Shown piece by piece: positions 17,791 through 60,568 of a DNA stretch of 64,000 nt. The position numbers and the translations under genes are program-made. The DNA is from Alloascoidea africana (taxonomy: Eukaryota > Ascomycota > Alloascoideomycetes > Alloascoideales > Alloascoideaceae). The stretch covers positions 372,001 through 436,000 of the forward strand of contig JAKTTT010000013.1 in the NCBI GenBank assembly GCA_030581615.1. The letters run 5' to 3'. Position 1 is the first letter of the stretch. Every line of letters starts with the position of its first letter. The notes beneath the pieces are model-generated. The model saw only the letters and a program-made list of their open reading frames with translations, was not told where the DNA came from and searched no databases.

Positions 17791-18455
17791 ATGGCTCCAG
17801 CAAAGAGTATGTAGATAAAAGTGTTCGACACTACTTTTATTGCTTTTCGGCGACAGTTGCAGTGGCTAGAAGTAAGATAGAGAGGAGCACGGATCAGAGA
17901 CTTGGATACAGAGTTACAATGAGACCTTGTACCTTTCTCTCGGAACACGAGCTGTTGATCTGTCGCCTTCTCCATTTTTTCTGCCGGGGATCGAACAAAA
18001 CGTCTAGAACTGTTTTCTCTAACTGAAATTGATTAGCAAACAAGGCTCTTTCTGCCAAAAAGGCCGCCCTCAAGGGTGTACACTCCTCCAAGAAGCTGAA
18101 GGTCCGCACTTCCACAACTTTCCGACGACCCAAGACTCTGAGGCTTGCCCGTGATCCCAAATATGCCCGCAAGGCAGTCCCACATTACAATCGTCTGGAC
18201 GAGTTCAAGATTGTTGTTGAGCCATTAACTTCCGAGACTGCGATGAAAAAGGTTGAGGACTCCAACACACTGGTTTTCATCGTCAACATTAAAGCCAACA
18301 AGCATCAGATCAAGGCTGCTGTCAAGAAATTGTACGACGTTGAGGCTGCACAGGTGAACACTCTGATTAGACCTAATGGAACAAAGAAGGCTTACGTGAG
18401 GTTGACTGAGGACTACGATGCTTTGGATGTTGCAAACAAGATTGGATACATTTAA
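17791..18455 (+). CDS. RPL25: 60S ribosomal protein L25 (uL23), two exons
   Basis: Exon 1 is 17791-17806 (MAPAK plus one base) and exon 2 is 18037-18455, giving 144 residues against 142 in S. cerevisiae. The intron (230 bases) starts GTATGT and ends TCTAACTGAAATTGATTAG. The protein reads [47 protein letters not shown], and ends [14 protein letters not shown]. uL23 sits at the peptide exit tunnel and binds SRP, and the basic N-terminal arm is its import signal. Conserved leucines of the family are encoded by CTG here, which shows the standard reading of CUG. The intron carries an 8-base inverted repeat (17849-17856 with 17960-17967). Confidence 0.97.
17849..17967 (+). repeat. Inverted repeat inside the RPL25 intron (GGCGACAG / CTGTCGCC)
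   Basis: A perfect 8-base inverted repeat with about 103 bases between the arms lies between donor and branch point. A shorter GAGAG/CTCTC pair lies inside it. It may fold into a stem that shortens the donor-to-branch distance. Confidence 0.55.
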
Positions 18456-35040: not shown

Positions 35041-36961
35041 ATGTCGCCAATACCGACACATCACTGTTCAGAGAGTCTAGGCGACCATATAACCTCAGGA
35101 AACTACGAACAATATCTCGAAGAAGGAATAACCCTTGATAATACCACAAAAGAAGCAAGCGAGAACTTTCAAGCACCGGTGTTGAATACCGACGTTCTTA
35201 TTGATAACGAGGAAACTGTGGAACTTGATGTTGAGGCGATATCAGATTCAGATCAACTAGAGCATTCGGCTCTAACAGCAGAAATAAAGGGAAATGGTGT
35301 AAGCTCGGTGTTACAGAAAGAATTAAGAAATTACAATGAAATCACTACTCAGGAAAACTCCTATGGGTTTGATGATGAAGGCAATCCCCTTGTTCGCATT
35401 GATACTGAGCTTGCAAGGGTGATTGAAGTACAGAGAGAAACAAGTGAAAATACTGTCGAAGGGGAGGAAAATGAGGAGCAAGAGCAGGGACAAGAAGGTG
35501 ATGGAGCTAATGATAATGATAACGATAATGACGAGGATGGATATGCAGACTCTTCTGATGAAGAGATTTCTTCTGAAATTGTGGATGAATTGGAAATATT
35601 TGCAGACTCTTTCAAGGGCCTAAGGAGTAGGTTTCGGTTAATCAATAAAATCGGAGAAGGCACTTTTTCATCTGTTTACAAGGCAGAAGATCTTCAGACT
35701 ATGGGCTCAGTGTCTAGCCCCTATGATTCGCAATGGTCGTCCCCGCCACTGAAAAGACAACGAATTTCGACAAATGGAAAGCCATGCAAGAAAAAGGGGA
35801 GAATAGTTGCTTTGAAGAGAATATATGTCACATCGAGCCCTCAGCGAATTTATAACGAACTGAATCTATTATACAAACTCTCCGATTCACCAAATGTGGC
35901 TCCACTGTATGACGCAGTCCGGTATCGTGATCAAGTCTTGGTGGTTCTACCGTACTACAAGCACTATGATTTTCGAGTATGTCTTTTCCTATTCTTTTCA
36001 TCGTGTTTTTATTAACCATGCTAACACTAATTATGTTGATAGGATTACTTCCGCACAATGCCTTTGGATGATATTCGAATATACATGACAGAACTGTTTC
36101 GAGCCTTGGCATTCATTCATAAACATGAAATTATTCACCGTGACATAAAGCCCACGTAAGTTACACCTCCATTTTCTGTTTTTCGCCCTTAGATTCTGAC
36201 TTTTTTTTTTAGCAACTTTCTGTATGACCCTTATAGGAAACGCGGAGTCCTGGTAGACTTTGGCTTAGCAGAGAAGCAACATTTTAAAGAAAGCTCTGCA
36301 TGTCCTTGTCTTACGAACCCAACAGGAGGACGAAGGCTGGACATAAAACCGGTGTCAGGCTATCCCAGAGATGATTGTAGGCCGGGACGGAGAGCAAACA
36401 GAGCAGGCACGAGAGGCTTTAGGGCACCAGAAGTGCTCTTCAAATGTTCAAATCAATCGACTAGTGAGTTTACAGATTTTTAATGGATTGGAAAACATCA
36501 TTAACAATTTGTTTCTAGAAATTGATATTTGGTCTGCAGGAGTGATATTGCTAACTTTTCTAAGTCGGCGATTTCCATTTTTTAATTCACCAGACGACGT
36601 TGAAGCGCTTATCGAGATATCAACAATATTTGGTAAAAGACGGATGCAGAATTGCGCAATGCTTCATGGTTGTGTTTTTGAGGTGACAATACCTACGATC
36701 CACGAGAGCGAATATCAGCTTGACGAGATTGTAGAATGGGCGTTATCTGCCGAAAGGAAAAAGCAACATGGTTCTTCAAATATACCCCCTAGTTTCAAAG
36801 AGACTTTCCCCGATGAAGAAACAGAGAGCCAAACGTTTGAGTTTTTAACAAAATGTTTGGAGCTGGATCCAAGTGACAGATGCACTGCACAGCAAGCTCT
36901 TGAATCGCCATTCGTAGAAGGCGTTCAAAAGAAGGAAAGCGATGTTATTGTCATAACTTGA
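35041..36961 (+). CDS. CDC7: DDK protein kinase Cdc7, four exons
   Basis: Exons 35041-35976, 36043-36155, 36213-36463 and 36519-36961 give 580 residues. Introns are 55 to 66 bases with donors GTATGT, GTAAGT and GTGAGT. The kinase core starts near 197 (FRLINKIGEGTFSSVYKAED); after splicing it reads IIHRDIKPTNFLYD, VLVDFGLAEKQ, RANRAGTRGFRAPEVLFKC and STKIDIWSAGVILL, all diagnostic of Cdc7. With Dbf4 it phosphorylates MCM to fire replication origins. Short kinase inserts follow the glycine loop (about 220-255) and DFG (about 405-435). An acidic N-terminal extension of about 195 residues (EEENEEQEQGQEGD, NDNDNDNDEDG) is longer than in S. cerevisiae. Each intron junction restores a conserved kinase motif, so the model is well supported. 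Confidence 0.94.
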
Positions 36962-55387: not shown

Positions 55388-56903
55388 TTAATTGACTATT
55401 TCCATGTCATTGTTGTTATCTGGCACAATGTCTGCGCCAGACGACAAAGGACCTTGGTCTTTGGGAAACGAGTCTTCACCTGAAGGATCGGAGTAGGTAC
55501 AGTAGCTCAGGTTGAGACGTCGATTTCCATAGTTATAACCTGAAAACTTTTTAATCGCAAGATCAGCAGTTTCTTGAGTATCAAACTTAACAACGCCGGT
55601 GCCACTGGATCTTCCCGAAGGCTCATACTTGATCTCAGCACGATCAACATTTCCAACAGTTACAAACAGCTCGACCAAATCCTGGTTCGTAGTAGACCAT
55701 GGCAGGTTCCCGACAAATATGGTGTCACTAGGTTCACCTTCGCCTCTAGCATTATCAGTAAAGTCATTCGGAGGAATTGGTTCTCTGCCACCAAAGCTTC
55801 CTCCAGAAGGTGGGCCTCCACGAAATCCACCAGAGCCACCATCAGCGAATCTGTCCTCGCGGACCTCAATTCTCCTTCCATACCATTCATAACCATTGAA
55901 TCTGTCGATGGCATTATTTGCATCCCCAATTGTTTCAAAAACAACAATGCCATTGCCTTTTGATCTTCCATTGTGCAATGTGTTGACATCCGCTCGTACT
56001 ACATTTCCAGCTCCACGGAAAAGATCTTTGAGCTGTCTCCAGTCCACACTGAACGGCAGATTACCAATAAACAGCTTTGTTCCGCTCTCGGCGTGTACTC
56101 TGGCACCATTGCTGCCTCCCCTAGGAGGATAAGAATTGAAGGGTGGAGGACCACCACTACTTCCGCTGCCACCACCGAATGGTTGCACGCGGTCCTACAT
56201 ACTAGTCAGTAATCCCGACTTTTAAAAGAAACGAGAACATGGCATACCTCACGAACAAAGATTTGACGGCCTAGTAATTCGGTGTTCGTCAACGTATCTA
56301 CAGCGCGTCTGGCATCGGCTGCGGAAGCGTATTCAACAACACTAGGCGGTTCGAATTAACAAAAATGTTTGCAAAAAACCAGTTTCTTTTCAACTTACCC
56401 ACAACCCTAAAAGAACGCGTTGGTTAGATGCCTCACGAGAACAAGAGTGGATGCCAGCATACCTTTGACCTCCCACTATAAGATTTCAAAACATCTGCGT
56501 GGACAACTTCGCCAGCTAGAAAAGGTGTCAGCGGTGGTTTTGAAGCTCAACCTCCAGCGATAAACAAATACCTTGTCGCATGTGATCCTTCAAATCCGTC
56601 CATCTCACTGAATACGCCAAATTACCAACATAAACCCGCTTTTCCAGGTCGCCTCCTCTAGGAGCCCTTTCTTCACGATAGGATGTATATCGTCTGTCAG
56701 AACGACGAGGGGACCTGGATCGAAGACGAGGGATAGAAGATTCTCTTGGCGGAGAACGGCTATAGCCTCTCCTTGGCGACCTGTCTCTGAAACCACGCGA
56801 ATCTCTCTGTTGTTGGTCAGCATATACAAACGCATTTCAATTCTTTCCAAATTACACGCACCTCTCTCGAATAATCAGCTAGATTCAGTTGGAACCTCCC
56901 CAT
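55388..56903 (-). CDS. GBP2: SR-like mRNA-binding protein Gbp2/Hrb1, six exons with an 8-nt microexon
   Basis: Exons (minus strand) 56862-56903, 56572-56806, 56463-56515, 56399-56406, 56248-56341 and 55388-56194 give 412 residues (Gbp2 has 427). An RS/RGG-like head (DRSPRRGYSRSPP) is followed by three RRMs: RVYVGNLAYSV, TKLFIGNLPFSV and DTIFVGNLPWST mark their RNP2 strands, and GRSKGCGVVEY, GRSKGNGIVVF and GRSSGTGVVKF their RNP1 strands. Gbp2 and Hrb1 bind spliced mRNA via THO/TREX and give export quality control. The 8-base exon supplies the Gly-Cys-Gly of the first RNP1 and is needed to keep the frame. Introns are 53-57 bases except a 55-base first one with donor GTGCGT, the least certain. 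A Gbp2 identity over Hrb1 is favoured by the neighbours (UPF0357 gene and BUD3). Confidence 0.92.
56399..56406 (-). other. GBP2: 8-nt microexon of GBP2
   Basis: Minus-strand context is TTCTTTTAG, then GGTTGTGG, then GTAAGT. A TCTAAC branch point lies 19 bases before the acceptor. The exon joins ...TCA AAG to T GTT GTT GAA and encodes G-C-G in RNP1. Flanking introns are 56 and 57 bases. Confidence 0.85.
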
Positions 56904-57318
56904 ATTAGCTACTCTCCTCCCAAAACCAAGTTCCCACCTCCTACTTACACATGATGCTTTTGCAGTTGCTGCTGATGATTGAAAGCTGAACCAAAAAAGA
57001 ACCACATTTAGTACTCAACGTGTATCGGACGAAACAAGACCAAGAAACAGTTGGAAAAGGAGAACCAGGACCGCCTTTTGACAGGCAAACGTGGTAACTT
57101 TTGCCGTTGAAATGCACTTTGCTCTCATCATTCTCCCGTCACACATCGCCATCTCTGAATCTCCTCCTCTCCTAACAAAAGCAAAAACTCAAGCGAAACA
57201 AGCTCAATCGCACGGAAAACTTTGCAACTCGCCATCTTCTTCTCGACACATACCCTCTCTTCCCTGAAGTGCTCACTTTCTAGATAAGCCTAACCAAGTG
57301 TTTGCAAATTTTTGAAGC
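56904..57318. other. Divergent promoter region GBP2/MoaE
   Basis: About 415 bases. On the minus strand an ATGTGTAAGTAGG near 56950 could be the donor of a 5'-UTR intron of GBP2, but no clear branch point follows. CT-rich on the plus strand near the MoaE start. Confidence 0.5.
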
Positions 57319-57933
57319 ATGGCATTGTGGCCCAACCGCGACAACTGCGCCGCAGATATGCTACACCCATACACCCAAATTGATGCTAAGAAAACCTTCT
57401 CGAAATGGCCCACAAAGAGAAGCGAAATGGCAGAGAGAATCTGGCGGCCGCCTTCTAACGTCCTGGACGATGCCAATGTCGATGTCTTCTTGACCAGGGA
57501 TGCCCTCGAGCCGGACTACTTTCTCAACTTTGTGCGGAGCAATCGTGCTGGCGCGGTGATCTACTTTGGGGGAACCACCAGAGACAGCTTTGCCCAGAAG
57601 GAGGTCCTTTCTCTTGAGTACGAGGCTCATATCCAAATGGCTCTTCGGACGCTGACCAAGATTGTGAAAAAGGCCATTGCATCTTCTATAGACACAGACC
57701 AGAAGATTCACAGAGTGGCGATCGCTCACCGTCTAGGGACTGTTCCTGTGGGTGAGGAGAGCATCATAATCGCGCTCAGCGCCACTCACAGGGAGGAAGG
57801 CTGGAAGGCTGCCCAGTGGATTCTAGAAGAGATAAAATCAAAGGCCGAGATTTGGAAAAATGAGCAATACGGCGATGGGACGTCGTCTTGGAAAGAGAAT
57901 GAAAATTCGGAAATCAGAGCTTCCTCTCAGTAA
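57319..57933 (+). CDS. Molybdopterin synthase catalytic subunit (MoaE/MOCS2B type)
   Basis: The 204-residue protein has an N-terminal extension of about 50 residues, then a complete MoaE domain (about 53-185): GAVIYFGGTTRD, LSLEYEAHIQMA, VAIAHRLGTVPVGE, ATHREEGWKAAQWILEEIK. The two active-site lysines of MoaE are kept with exact spacing, K173 and K180 (IKSKAEIWK). It transfers two sulphurs from the thiocarboxylated small subunit MoaD onto precursor Z to make molybdopterin. S. cerevisiae lacks this pathway; yeasts that keep it are mainly nitrate assimilators. No other Moco gene is in the window. It is divergent from GBP2 and convergent with MRPL2 (47 bases apart). No intron. Confidence 0.92.
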   Translation: MALWPNRDNCAADMLHPYTQIDAKKTFSKWPTKRSEMAERIWRPPSNVLDDANVDVFLTRDALEPDYFLNFVRSNRAGAVIYFGGTTRDSFAQKEVLSLEYEAHIQMALRTLTKIVKKAIASSIDTDQKIHRVAIAHRLGTVPVGEESIIIALSATHREEGWKAAQWILEEIKSKAEIWKNEQYGDGTSSWKENENSEIRASSQ

Positions 57934-59971: not shown

Positions 59972-60568
59972 TCAGCTAAAGCAGATGGCTCTGGGGTCCA
60001 AAGGCATACCATCAGGTCCTAAATAAATGTAACAGTTAGCGAAAATAATAATAGTACTATATACCAAGAAACTTACCAATCCCATTTTCCATCATTTTCC
60101 TCCTGGTATATATCAGCCTAGCCTCATCGAAAGATGTTCCCGGTCTTTGCCGTATTATTATAAGGATATCATTTTTCGAGTCCTCCGCCAGTCCCATCCT
60201 CGTTTCGCCAGGATCAAGGTTGTTGGTCGCTAGATCGAAATTGGACGATGTAAGCCCCAGGCTCATATCTTCTACAAAGCTAATTCGGCTTCGTGTGTGG
60301 CGCCTATAATGATCTAATCGCTGGATTGAATTCGCTTCAGGAACAATACAGGCGATACTTTCTTTTGCAATCGAAGGCTCCATTGGCATGACACACAAAC
60401 CGGGAGAAACGTGAGAAGTTCTAGGAGGTCTACCTTTGCCCATTCCCCTGCCTCCTGCCTTGAAACTAAATCCCATTACTGTAATAGATGAGGTTAAATG
60501 GCGAATCAAAACCTCTGAGCCATCCAGATAAACTTACTTTTTCGATAGCCGTTGACAAATGAATCCAT
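59972..60568 (-). CDS. UPF0357 (DUF2015) protein, YCL012C-like, three exons
   Basis: Exons (minus strand) 60538-60568, 60077-60478 and 59972-60018 give 159 residues. The last intron (58 bases) has donor GTAAGT and branch GCTAACTG; the first has donor GTAAGT. The conserved C-terminal part reads GLAEDSKNDILIIIRQRPGTSFDEARLIYTRRKMMENGIG joined to PDGMPLDPRAICFS, which matches my memory of S. cerevisiae YCL012C (FDEARLIYFQNSL, AKNGISKEGMPLDPKA). Function is unknown. The last 15 residues exist only after splicing. Exon 1 (MDSFVNGYRK) is less secure because the N-terminus is not conserved. GBP2 and BUD3, its neighbours in S. cerevisiae, flank this region too. Confidence 0.85.

Follow-up and report, generated by a model that had tools for sequence, protein, structure and literature searches.

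We studied a GBP2/HRB1-type gene of Alloascoidea africana, an intron-bearing ascomycete yeast, which appears to contain an internal exon of only 8 nt, GGTTGTGG. Taken together with its two short flanking introns, this exon (exon 4) gives the only open reading of the stretch that restores both the conserved RNP1 motif of the first RNA recognition motif (RRM1) and the whole 412-aa frame. Judging from the DNA sequence, we consider it likely that the exon is constitutively included and that its introns leave the transcript singly. All positions given below refer to the window, i.e., the whole stretch of 64,000 nucleotides that was analysed.

The gene occupies positions 56903-55388 on the minus strand and has six exons separated by introns of 55, 56, 56, 57 and 53 nt. 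With exon 4 included, the spliced frame amounts to 1239 nt with the stop codon and encodes 412 aa. Three stretches of this product matched Pfam RRM_1 (E 5.4e-57), the number of RRMs expected of Gbp2/Hrb1 SR-like proteins, and the translation showed an RS-rich N-terminus at roughly residues 12-65, corresponding to the N-terminal SR/RGG region by which these proteins are defined (PMC8541090, PMC11476243). Among PDB chains, the protein matched HRB1 RRM3 (E 3.9e-19), GBP2 RRM3 (E 1.6e-14), HRB1 RRM2 (E 2.4e-14) and HRB1 RRM1 (E 6e-10); the best-scoring chain overall was a poly(A)-binding protein (E 1.2e-20, two stretches), as is expected because the query is a many-RRM protein. Residues 288-376 aligned to positions 9-97 of HRB1 (2mzt), in an alignment that includes the N-terminal extension of the third RRM, and to positions 10-98 of GBP2 (2mzq), a match given as a range and not as a printed alignment. 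The third RRM is therefore of the atypical, extended form; such an N-terminal extension of RRM3 is a hallmark of the Gbp2/Hrb1 SR-like proteins, whose family traits also include binding to THO/TREX and to GGUG RNA. The gene was taken as a putative Gbp2/Hrb1 orthologue. Several other fungi, among them Fusarium graminearum, Aspergillus nidulans and Candida albicans, are reported to have a single orthologue each (PMC9605648), and Gbp2/Hrb1 take part in nonsense-mediated decay as well as acting on transcripts that contain introns (PMC8541090). A search for relatives of the 268-aa protein encoded by exon 6 gave 6 pattern stretches in viral contigs and 91 in genome contigs, 0 of them confirmed, in a collection that is non-fungal and uninformative on yeasts.

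We inferred the splice structure, all on the minus strand, from the conservation of the encoded protein and from splice signals. Exon 1 (56862-56903, 42 nt, MGRFQLNLADYSRE) was assigned by the open frame that joins it to exon 2 and is the least certain exon. Intron 1 (56807-56861, 55 nt, GTGCGT...TGCTGAC...CAG), for which the open frame was the only guide, is followed by exon 2 (56572-56806, 235 nt), with the RS-rich N-terminus and the start of RRM1 (VYVGNL) recognized by Pfam RRM_1. Intron 2 (56516-56571, 56 nt, GTATTT...CGCTGAC...CTAG) was placed by its position inside RRM1, and exon 3 (56463-56515, 53 nt), placed by the spliced frame, ends in ...GRSK in phase 0. The splice signals of intron 3 (56407-56462, 56 nt) read AAG|GTATGC...ATCTAAC...TTTTAG, with the branch 17 nt from the 3' end. 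Exon 4 (56399-56406) would provide the Gly-Cys-Gly of RNP1 and passes from phase 0 to phase 2; it was assigned by RNP1 and by the enumeration and shuffles described below. Intron 4 (56342-56398, 57 nt) has the donor TGG|GTAAGT, the acceptor GCCTAG and weak branch candidates. Exon 5 (56248-56341, 94 nt) encodes the remainder of RRM1 (VVEYASAADARRAV...), again recognized by Pfam RRM_1; intron 5 (56195-56247, 53 nt, GTATGC...TACTGAC...GTAG) was drawn from the open frame only, and exon 6 (55388-56194, 807 nt), with Pfam and PDB matches, carries RRM2, RRM3 and the stop codon. An alternative first exon, ATGT with a GTAAGT donor at 56948 (56952-56803), leads to open proteins via six acceptor choices, the first of which gives a protein that starts with MYSRGFRDRSPRR; the GBP2-type protein perhaps has two start forms. 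The uncertain first exon has no effect on exon 4.

An initial annotation of this DNA had proposed an 8-nt exon flanked by two introns of 56-57 nt, preceded by a TCTAAC branch and a TTTTAG acceptor and followed by GTAAGT, and all these elements were found on the minus strand. Taking a microexon as an internal exon of up to about 30 nt, exon 4 belongs to this class: it is internal, 8 nt long and flanked by canonical GT-AG introns. Its inclusion gives the reading ...GRSKGCGVVEYAS..., in which the exon builds the RNP1 of RRM1 (K-G-C-G-V-V-E-Y), as had also been proposed. RRM1 with exon 4 matched positions 1-69 of the Pfam RRM_1 profile over 69 residues with 66.6 bits, and the score fell to 50.0 bits when the three exon 4 residues were removed. 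Positions 3 and 5 of the RNP1 consensus are usually aromatic. The description of this motif as a proper RNP1 holds for its pattern, but the two positions are occupied here by Cys and Val. Gly-Cys-Gly is a known form of RNP1, since human hnRNP M, a solved relative found in the PDB search, has NGKSKGCGVVKFE as its RNP1 (the printed alignment is to RRM2 of the GBP2-type protein). The function of exon 4 appears to be the encoding of the Gly-Cys-Gly of RNP1 and not the making of an isoform.

We enumerated the possible readings between exons 3 and 5 in which the frame runs uninterrupted to the usual stop codon. A single intron had to be at least 35 nt long with a GT or GC donor; in two-intron readings, each intron had a GT donor and a length of 40-130 nt, with 1-60 nt in between. 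There were 113 open two-intron readings and the RNP1 pattern was present in just one, the exon 4 model; it was present in 0 of the 21 open one-intron readings. When the 121-base insert was dinucleotide-shuffled 20,000 times, with the first 6 and last 3 bases fixed, an exon of at most 30 nt that restores the frame arose in 2736 shuffles (13.7%), one with a donor consensus in 227, and one with both donor and upstream branch consensus in 86 (0.43%). An 8-nt exon that also gave RNP1 occurred in 0 of the 20,000. The coincidence of exon 4 with RNP1 is more than chance.

The strength of the splice signals was scored with matrices made from 10 other introns in the window: three from the GBP2 gene, two from a DUF2015 gene, one from a mitochondrial L27-type gene, two from a CDC7-like kinase gene and two from an allantoinase-like gene. 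The matrix is crude, as the reference introns are themselves inferred, 5 of the 10 from the open frame alone, and their branch sites were hand-picked; 5 of the 10 (GBP2 intron 2, DUF2015 intron 2, the L27 intron and both kinase introns) lie inside a Pfam-matched stretch of the spliced product. The donors of introns 3 and 4 scored 10.0 and 7.9 bits (leave-one-out reference mean 6.2, range 4.9-9.3), and the intron 3 branch site ATCTAAC scored 7.6 bits (reference mean 6.5, range 2.2-8.8). No good branch site is present in intron 4, where the top candidates reach 5.2, 4.5 and 3.5 bits; three of the 10 reference introns had branch scores no better than the best of these (2.2, 2.2 and 5.0). The acceptors gave 6.6 bits for intron 3 and 2.5 bits for intron 4 (reference mean 3.4, range -0.1 to 6.1). 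The signals bordering exon 4 are thus good and above the reference means; the branch region and acceptor of intron 4 are weaker. The expected failure is therefore retention of an intron and not skipping of the exon.

We also derived the products of such errors. Skipping of exon 4 shifts the frame and truncates the protein, as the initial annotation had stated: the product, ...GRSKCC*, is 112 aa long and is cut inside RRM1 by a stop at the third codon past the junction. Single retention of introns 1 to 5 brings a stop after 28, 106, 119, 113 and 157 residues, respectively, and in the case of intron 4 the frame is closed by a TAA at donor positions +2 to +4, i.e., the stop lies within the intron's own donor. 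Transcripts with an early stop are likely targets of nonsense-mediated decay, and the retention and skip transcripts of GBP2 likely meet this fate.

The gene would be spliced by intron definition, one of the introns beside exon 4 being recognized at a time. The removal of introns 3 and 4 would be sequential because eight bases are too few for splice complexes to sit at both ends simultaneously. Once the first flanking intron is out, exon 4 would be fused to an exon of normal size and the second intron could be spliced as usual. Intron 3 would probably go first, since it is transcribed earlier and has a better branch site and acceptor than intron 4, which would probably go second. Errors would leave intron 4 (or intron 3) in the transcript. 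Retention as the likely failure agrees with the fission yeast work of Romfo et al. (2000), in which skipping of the cgs2 microexon reportedly could not be induced and retention was observed instead.

The weaker signals of intron 4 could make inclusion inefficient. According to one possibility, retention is homeostatic: inefficient removal of intron 4, together with steric crowding at exon 4, would yield an unproductive share of transcripts that Gbp2, as a guard of splicing, senses or sets. The branch region and acceptor of intron 4, below the reference means, and the stop inside its own donor would suit such a device, as would the roles of Gbp2/Hrb1 described above. A looser G-rich motif, GNGG, which is that of Npl3 RRM2 (PMC10630445), occurs twice in 56342-56462 and 36 times in the gene. 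Against this, the Gbp2 core motif GGUG (PMC11476243, PMC10630445), with 10 occurrences in the unspliced coding span, has 0 in the 121 bases of 56342-56462, and the Hrb1 motif CuGCU (PMC10630445) is absent from the same interval. The weak branch region is also shared with the three reference introns noted above, and the predicted RNA fold of 56300-56515 is ordinary (z 0.83; 159 of 200 shuffles gave an equally good or better fold). The stem 'autoregul' was absent from the available portions of two Gbp2 reviews. We regard homeostatic retention as unlikely.

A related proposal, which we hold to be quite unlikely, is that exon 4 acts as a built-in sensor of splicing capacity: as its two flanking introns cannot be handled simultaneously and the branch region of intron 4 is weak, a variable share of GBP2 transcripts would keep intron 4 and be destroyed, and Gbp2, which guards against incompletely spliced mRNA, would adjust this share on its own transcript. 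Some further sequence features of the region were noted. The microexon's own GGUUG is close to the Gbp2 motif and is one of two occurrences in the unspliced coding span. The junction of exons 4 and 5 forms the only GGUGU in the mRNA, which we judged ordinary; the GGUG count is 10 in the spliced and unspliced forms alike. A regulatory RNA structure at 56300-56515 was considered and rejected on the fold statistics given above. An Rfam search gave 0 matches at the gathering threshold in the window, and its one match in the gene region (E 0.47) was far below the gathering score.

Regulated skipping, in which exon 3 is joined to exon 5 and the 112-aa protein or the decay of its mRNA controls the amount of Gbp2, is in our opinion very unlikely. 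The small size of exon 4 and the stop that follows its omission would fit a control of this kind, and exon skipping does exist in Yarrowia, where it affects 4 of the at least 88 genes that have variants (PMC2911113); Xlr2 of Trichoderma provides a regulated microexon whose length is not a multiple of three (PMC11121469). Skipping, however, requires that donor 3 bypass a stronger and nearer acceptor in favour of the farther one of intron 4, which is weaker itself and has a weaker branch region. In Yarrowia, the frequent skipping of one exon has been attributed to suboptimal bordering sites (PMC2911113), the opposite of the borders of exon 4, and the Xlr2 study saw no read that joins exon 1 to exon 3, so the regulated form there is not a simple skip (PMC11121469). 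The cgs2 result mentioned above likewise speaks for retention. Moreover, the skip leaves no usable isoform, which is often, though not always, required of switch-like regulated microexons, and inclusion is the productive form of exon 4, whereas in autoregulation by a poison exon inclusion makes the mRNA unproductive. The initial annotation had considered a splicing-coupled switch or autoregulation; this idea fared poorly, given bordering signals above the reference means, no GGUG in exon 4 or introns 3 and 4, and an ordinary RNA fold.

It is most improbable that there is no separate 8-nt exon and that a single intron with another junction runs to 56342, e.g., from the donor GTGAGG at 56436 or a GC donor at 56454, the one-intron readings closest in protein length. 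Both junctions stay open (...RSKVCWHPLLFSVVEY... and ...RSKVCCVVEY...), but the RNP1 pattern is in neither product and, with 3.2 and -0.2 bits, their donors fall outside the reference range of 4.9-9.3. A nested, stwintron-like intron with all 121 bases excised in two steps might come to mind, as the two short introns lie almost back to back and complex introns of this type are known from Lipomyces, a genus of yeasts (PMC7138796). We give it practically no weight, because excision of the whole insert gives a frameshift (SKCC*, with the stop at the third codon past the junction) where a stwintron leaves the frame intact, and would discard the 8 bases that hold conserved RNP1 residues.

Inspection of the window gave some additional observations. 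The 9-mer TGTTCTCGT occurs exactly three times (56443-56435, 56239-56231 and 33505-33497), each copy inside an intron with a GTATGC donor, namely GBP2 introns 3 and 5 and intron 2 of the allantoinase-like gene. It may point to an intronic element or origin that these introns share; a common origin is not claimed, as the observation is post hoc and 27 of 2000 shuffled intron sets also share some 9-mer among at least three introns. The best pair alignments among the introns were not above those of shuffles. The CDC7-like gene has an apparent third short intron at 36464-36518 (55 nt, GTGAGT...ATTAAC...CTAG), between ...CSNQST and IDIWSAGV. Adjoining GBP2, positions 57319-57933 encode a MoaE family protein (molybdopterin synthase large subunit; Pfam E 7.6e-32), i.e., a molybdenum-cofactor gene, and the DUF2015 gene (59972-60568, minus strand) has two short introns, the second inside the conserved domain. 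The gene at 17791-18455, which from its sequence we take to be that of a ribosomal protein uL23 (L25)-like protein, has a 16-nt coding first exon and an intron of ~230 nt (17807-18036), compared with 53-66 nt in the other scored genes. ARAGORN found no tRNA in the window.

Constitutive inclusion of exon 4, the reading that we prefer, makes this gene a natural test case for the splicing of an exon too small for two splice complexes in an organism with short introns, and one with a built-in check, as RNP1 arises from correct splicing only. It is also a warning for gene finders: an 8-nt exon is easily overlooked, and a conserved gene would then be wrongly truncated. A regulatory role of exon 4 is unproven, and the sequence argues against a skipping switch. 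A literature search combining gbp2 and microexon, with poor coverage of subscription journals, found no report of this exon. No yeast microexon appeared in the accessible portions of PMC4651352, PMC10853796 or PMC3990503, and GBP2 was unmentioned in those of PMC4022394, which gives general intron numbers of a budding yeast.

That exons this small are rare in yeasts, as initially proposed, is plausible. Exon 2 of YALI0B15598g in Yarrowia lipolytica (39 bp) is, like exon 4, a small internal exon in a budding yeast, but its length is a multiple of three, its sites are suboptimal and it is mostly skipped, whereas exon 4 has good borders and its skipping breaks the frame (PMC2911113). Comparable sizes were annotated in the P450 genes of Phanerochaete chrysosporium, with exons as short as 6 bp and frequent introns of 45-55 bp (PMC1184071); this, however, is a white rot fungus and not a yeast, and the P450 genes are a gene family other than GBP2. 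The 20-nt microexon of Trichoderma virens Xlr2 resembles exon 4 in being fungal, in having a length that is not a multiple of three and in completing a nucleic-acid-binding motif (PMC11121469). It was reported to be regulated by glucose, whereas the sequence of exon 4 gives no sign of regulation; as one fungal microexon followed experimentally, this reportedly regulated case may count by analogy against constitutive inclusion of exon 4. The same paper notes that work on fungal microexons is limited, with experimental tests previously in S. pombe only (PMC11121469).

Outside the fungi, the single-nucleotide exon of Arabidopsis APC11 is constitutive and, like exon 4, tiny, and its authors suggest that the two introns are removed in succession (PMC4674806); the APC11 exon is from a plant, 1 nt long and experimentally shown, whereas exon 4 is from a yeast, 8 nt long and inferred. 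In humans, microexons of less than 10 bp whose length is not a multiple of three are constitutive in five genes: MPC1 (4 bp), TNNI1, KSR1, TMEM237 and MUSK (PMC9929638). These share with exon 4 a very short length not divisible by three, an internal position and a loss of frame upon omission. They differ in context: human MPC1 has long flanking introns and its authors argue for exon definition (PMC9929638), whereas the introns of 56-57 nt beside exon 4 make intron definition more likely. Exon 4 thus shows no sign of a new mechanism, as very short constitutive exons are already known in humans and plants.
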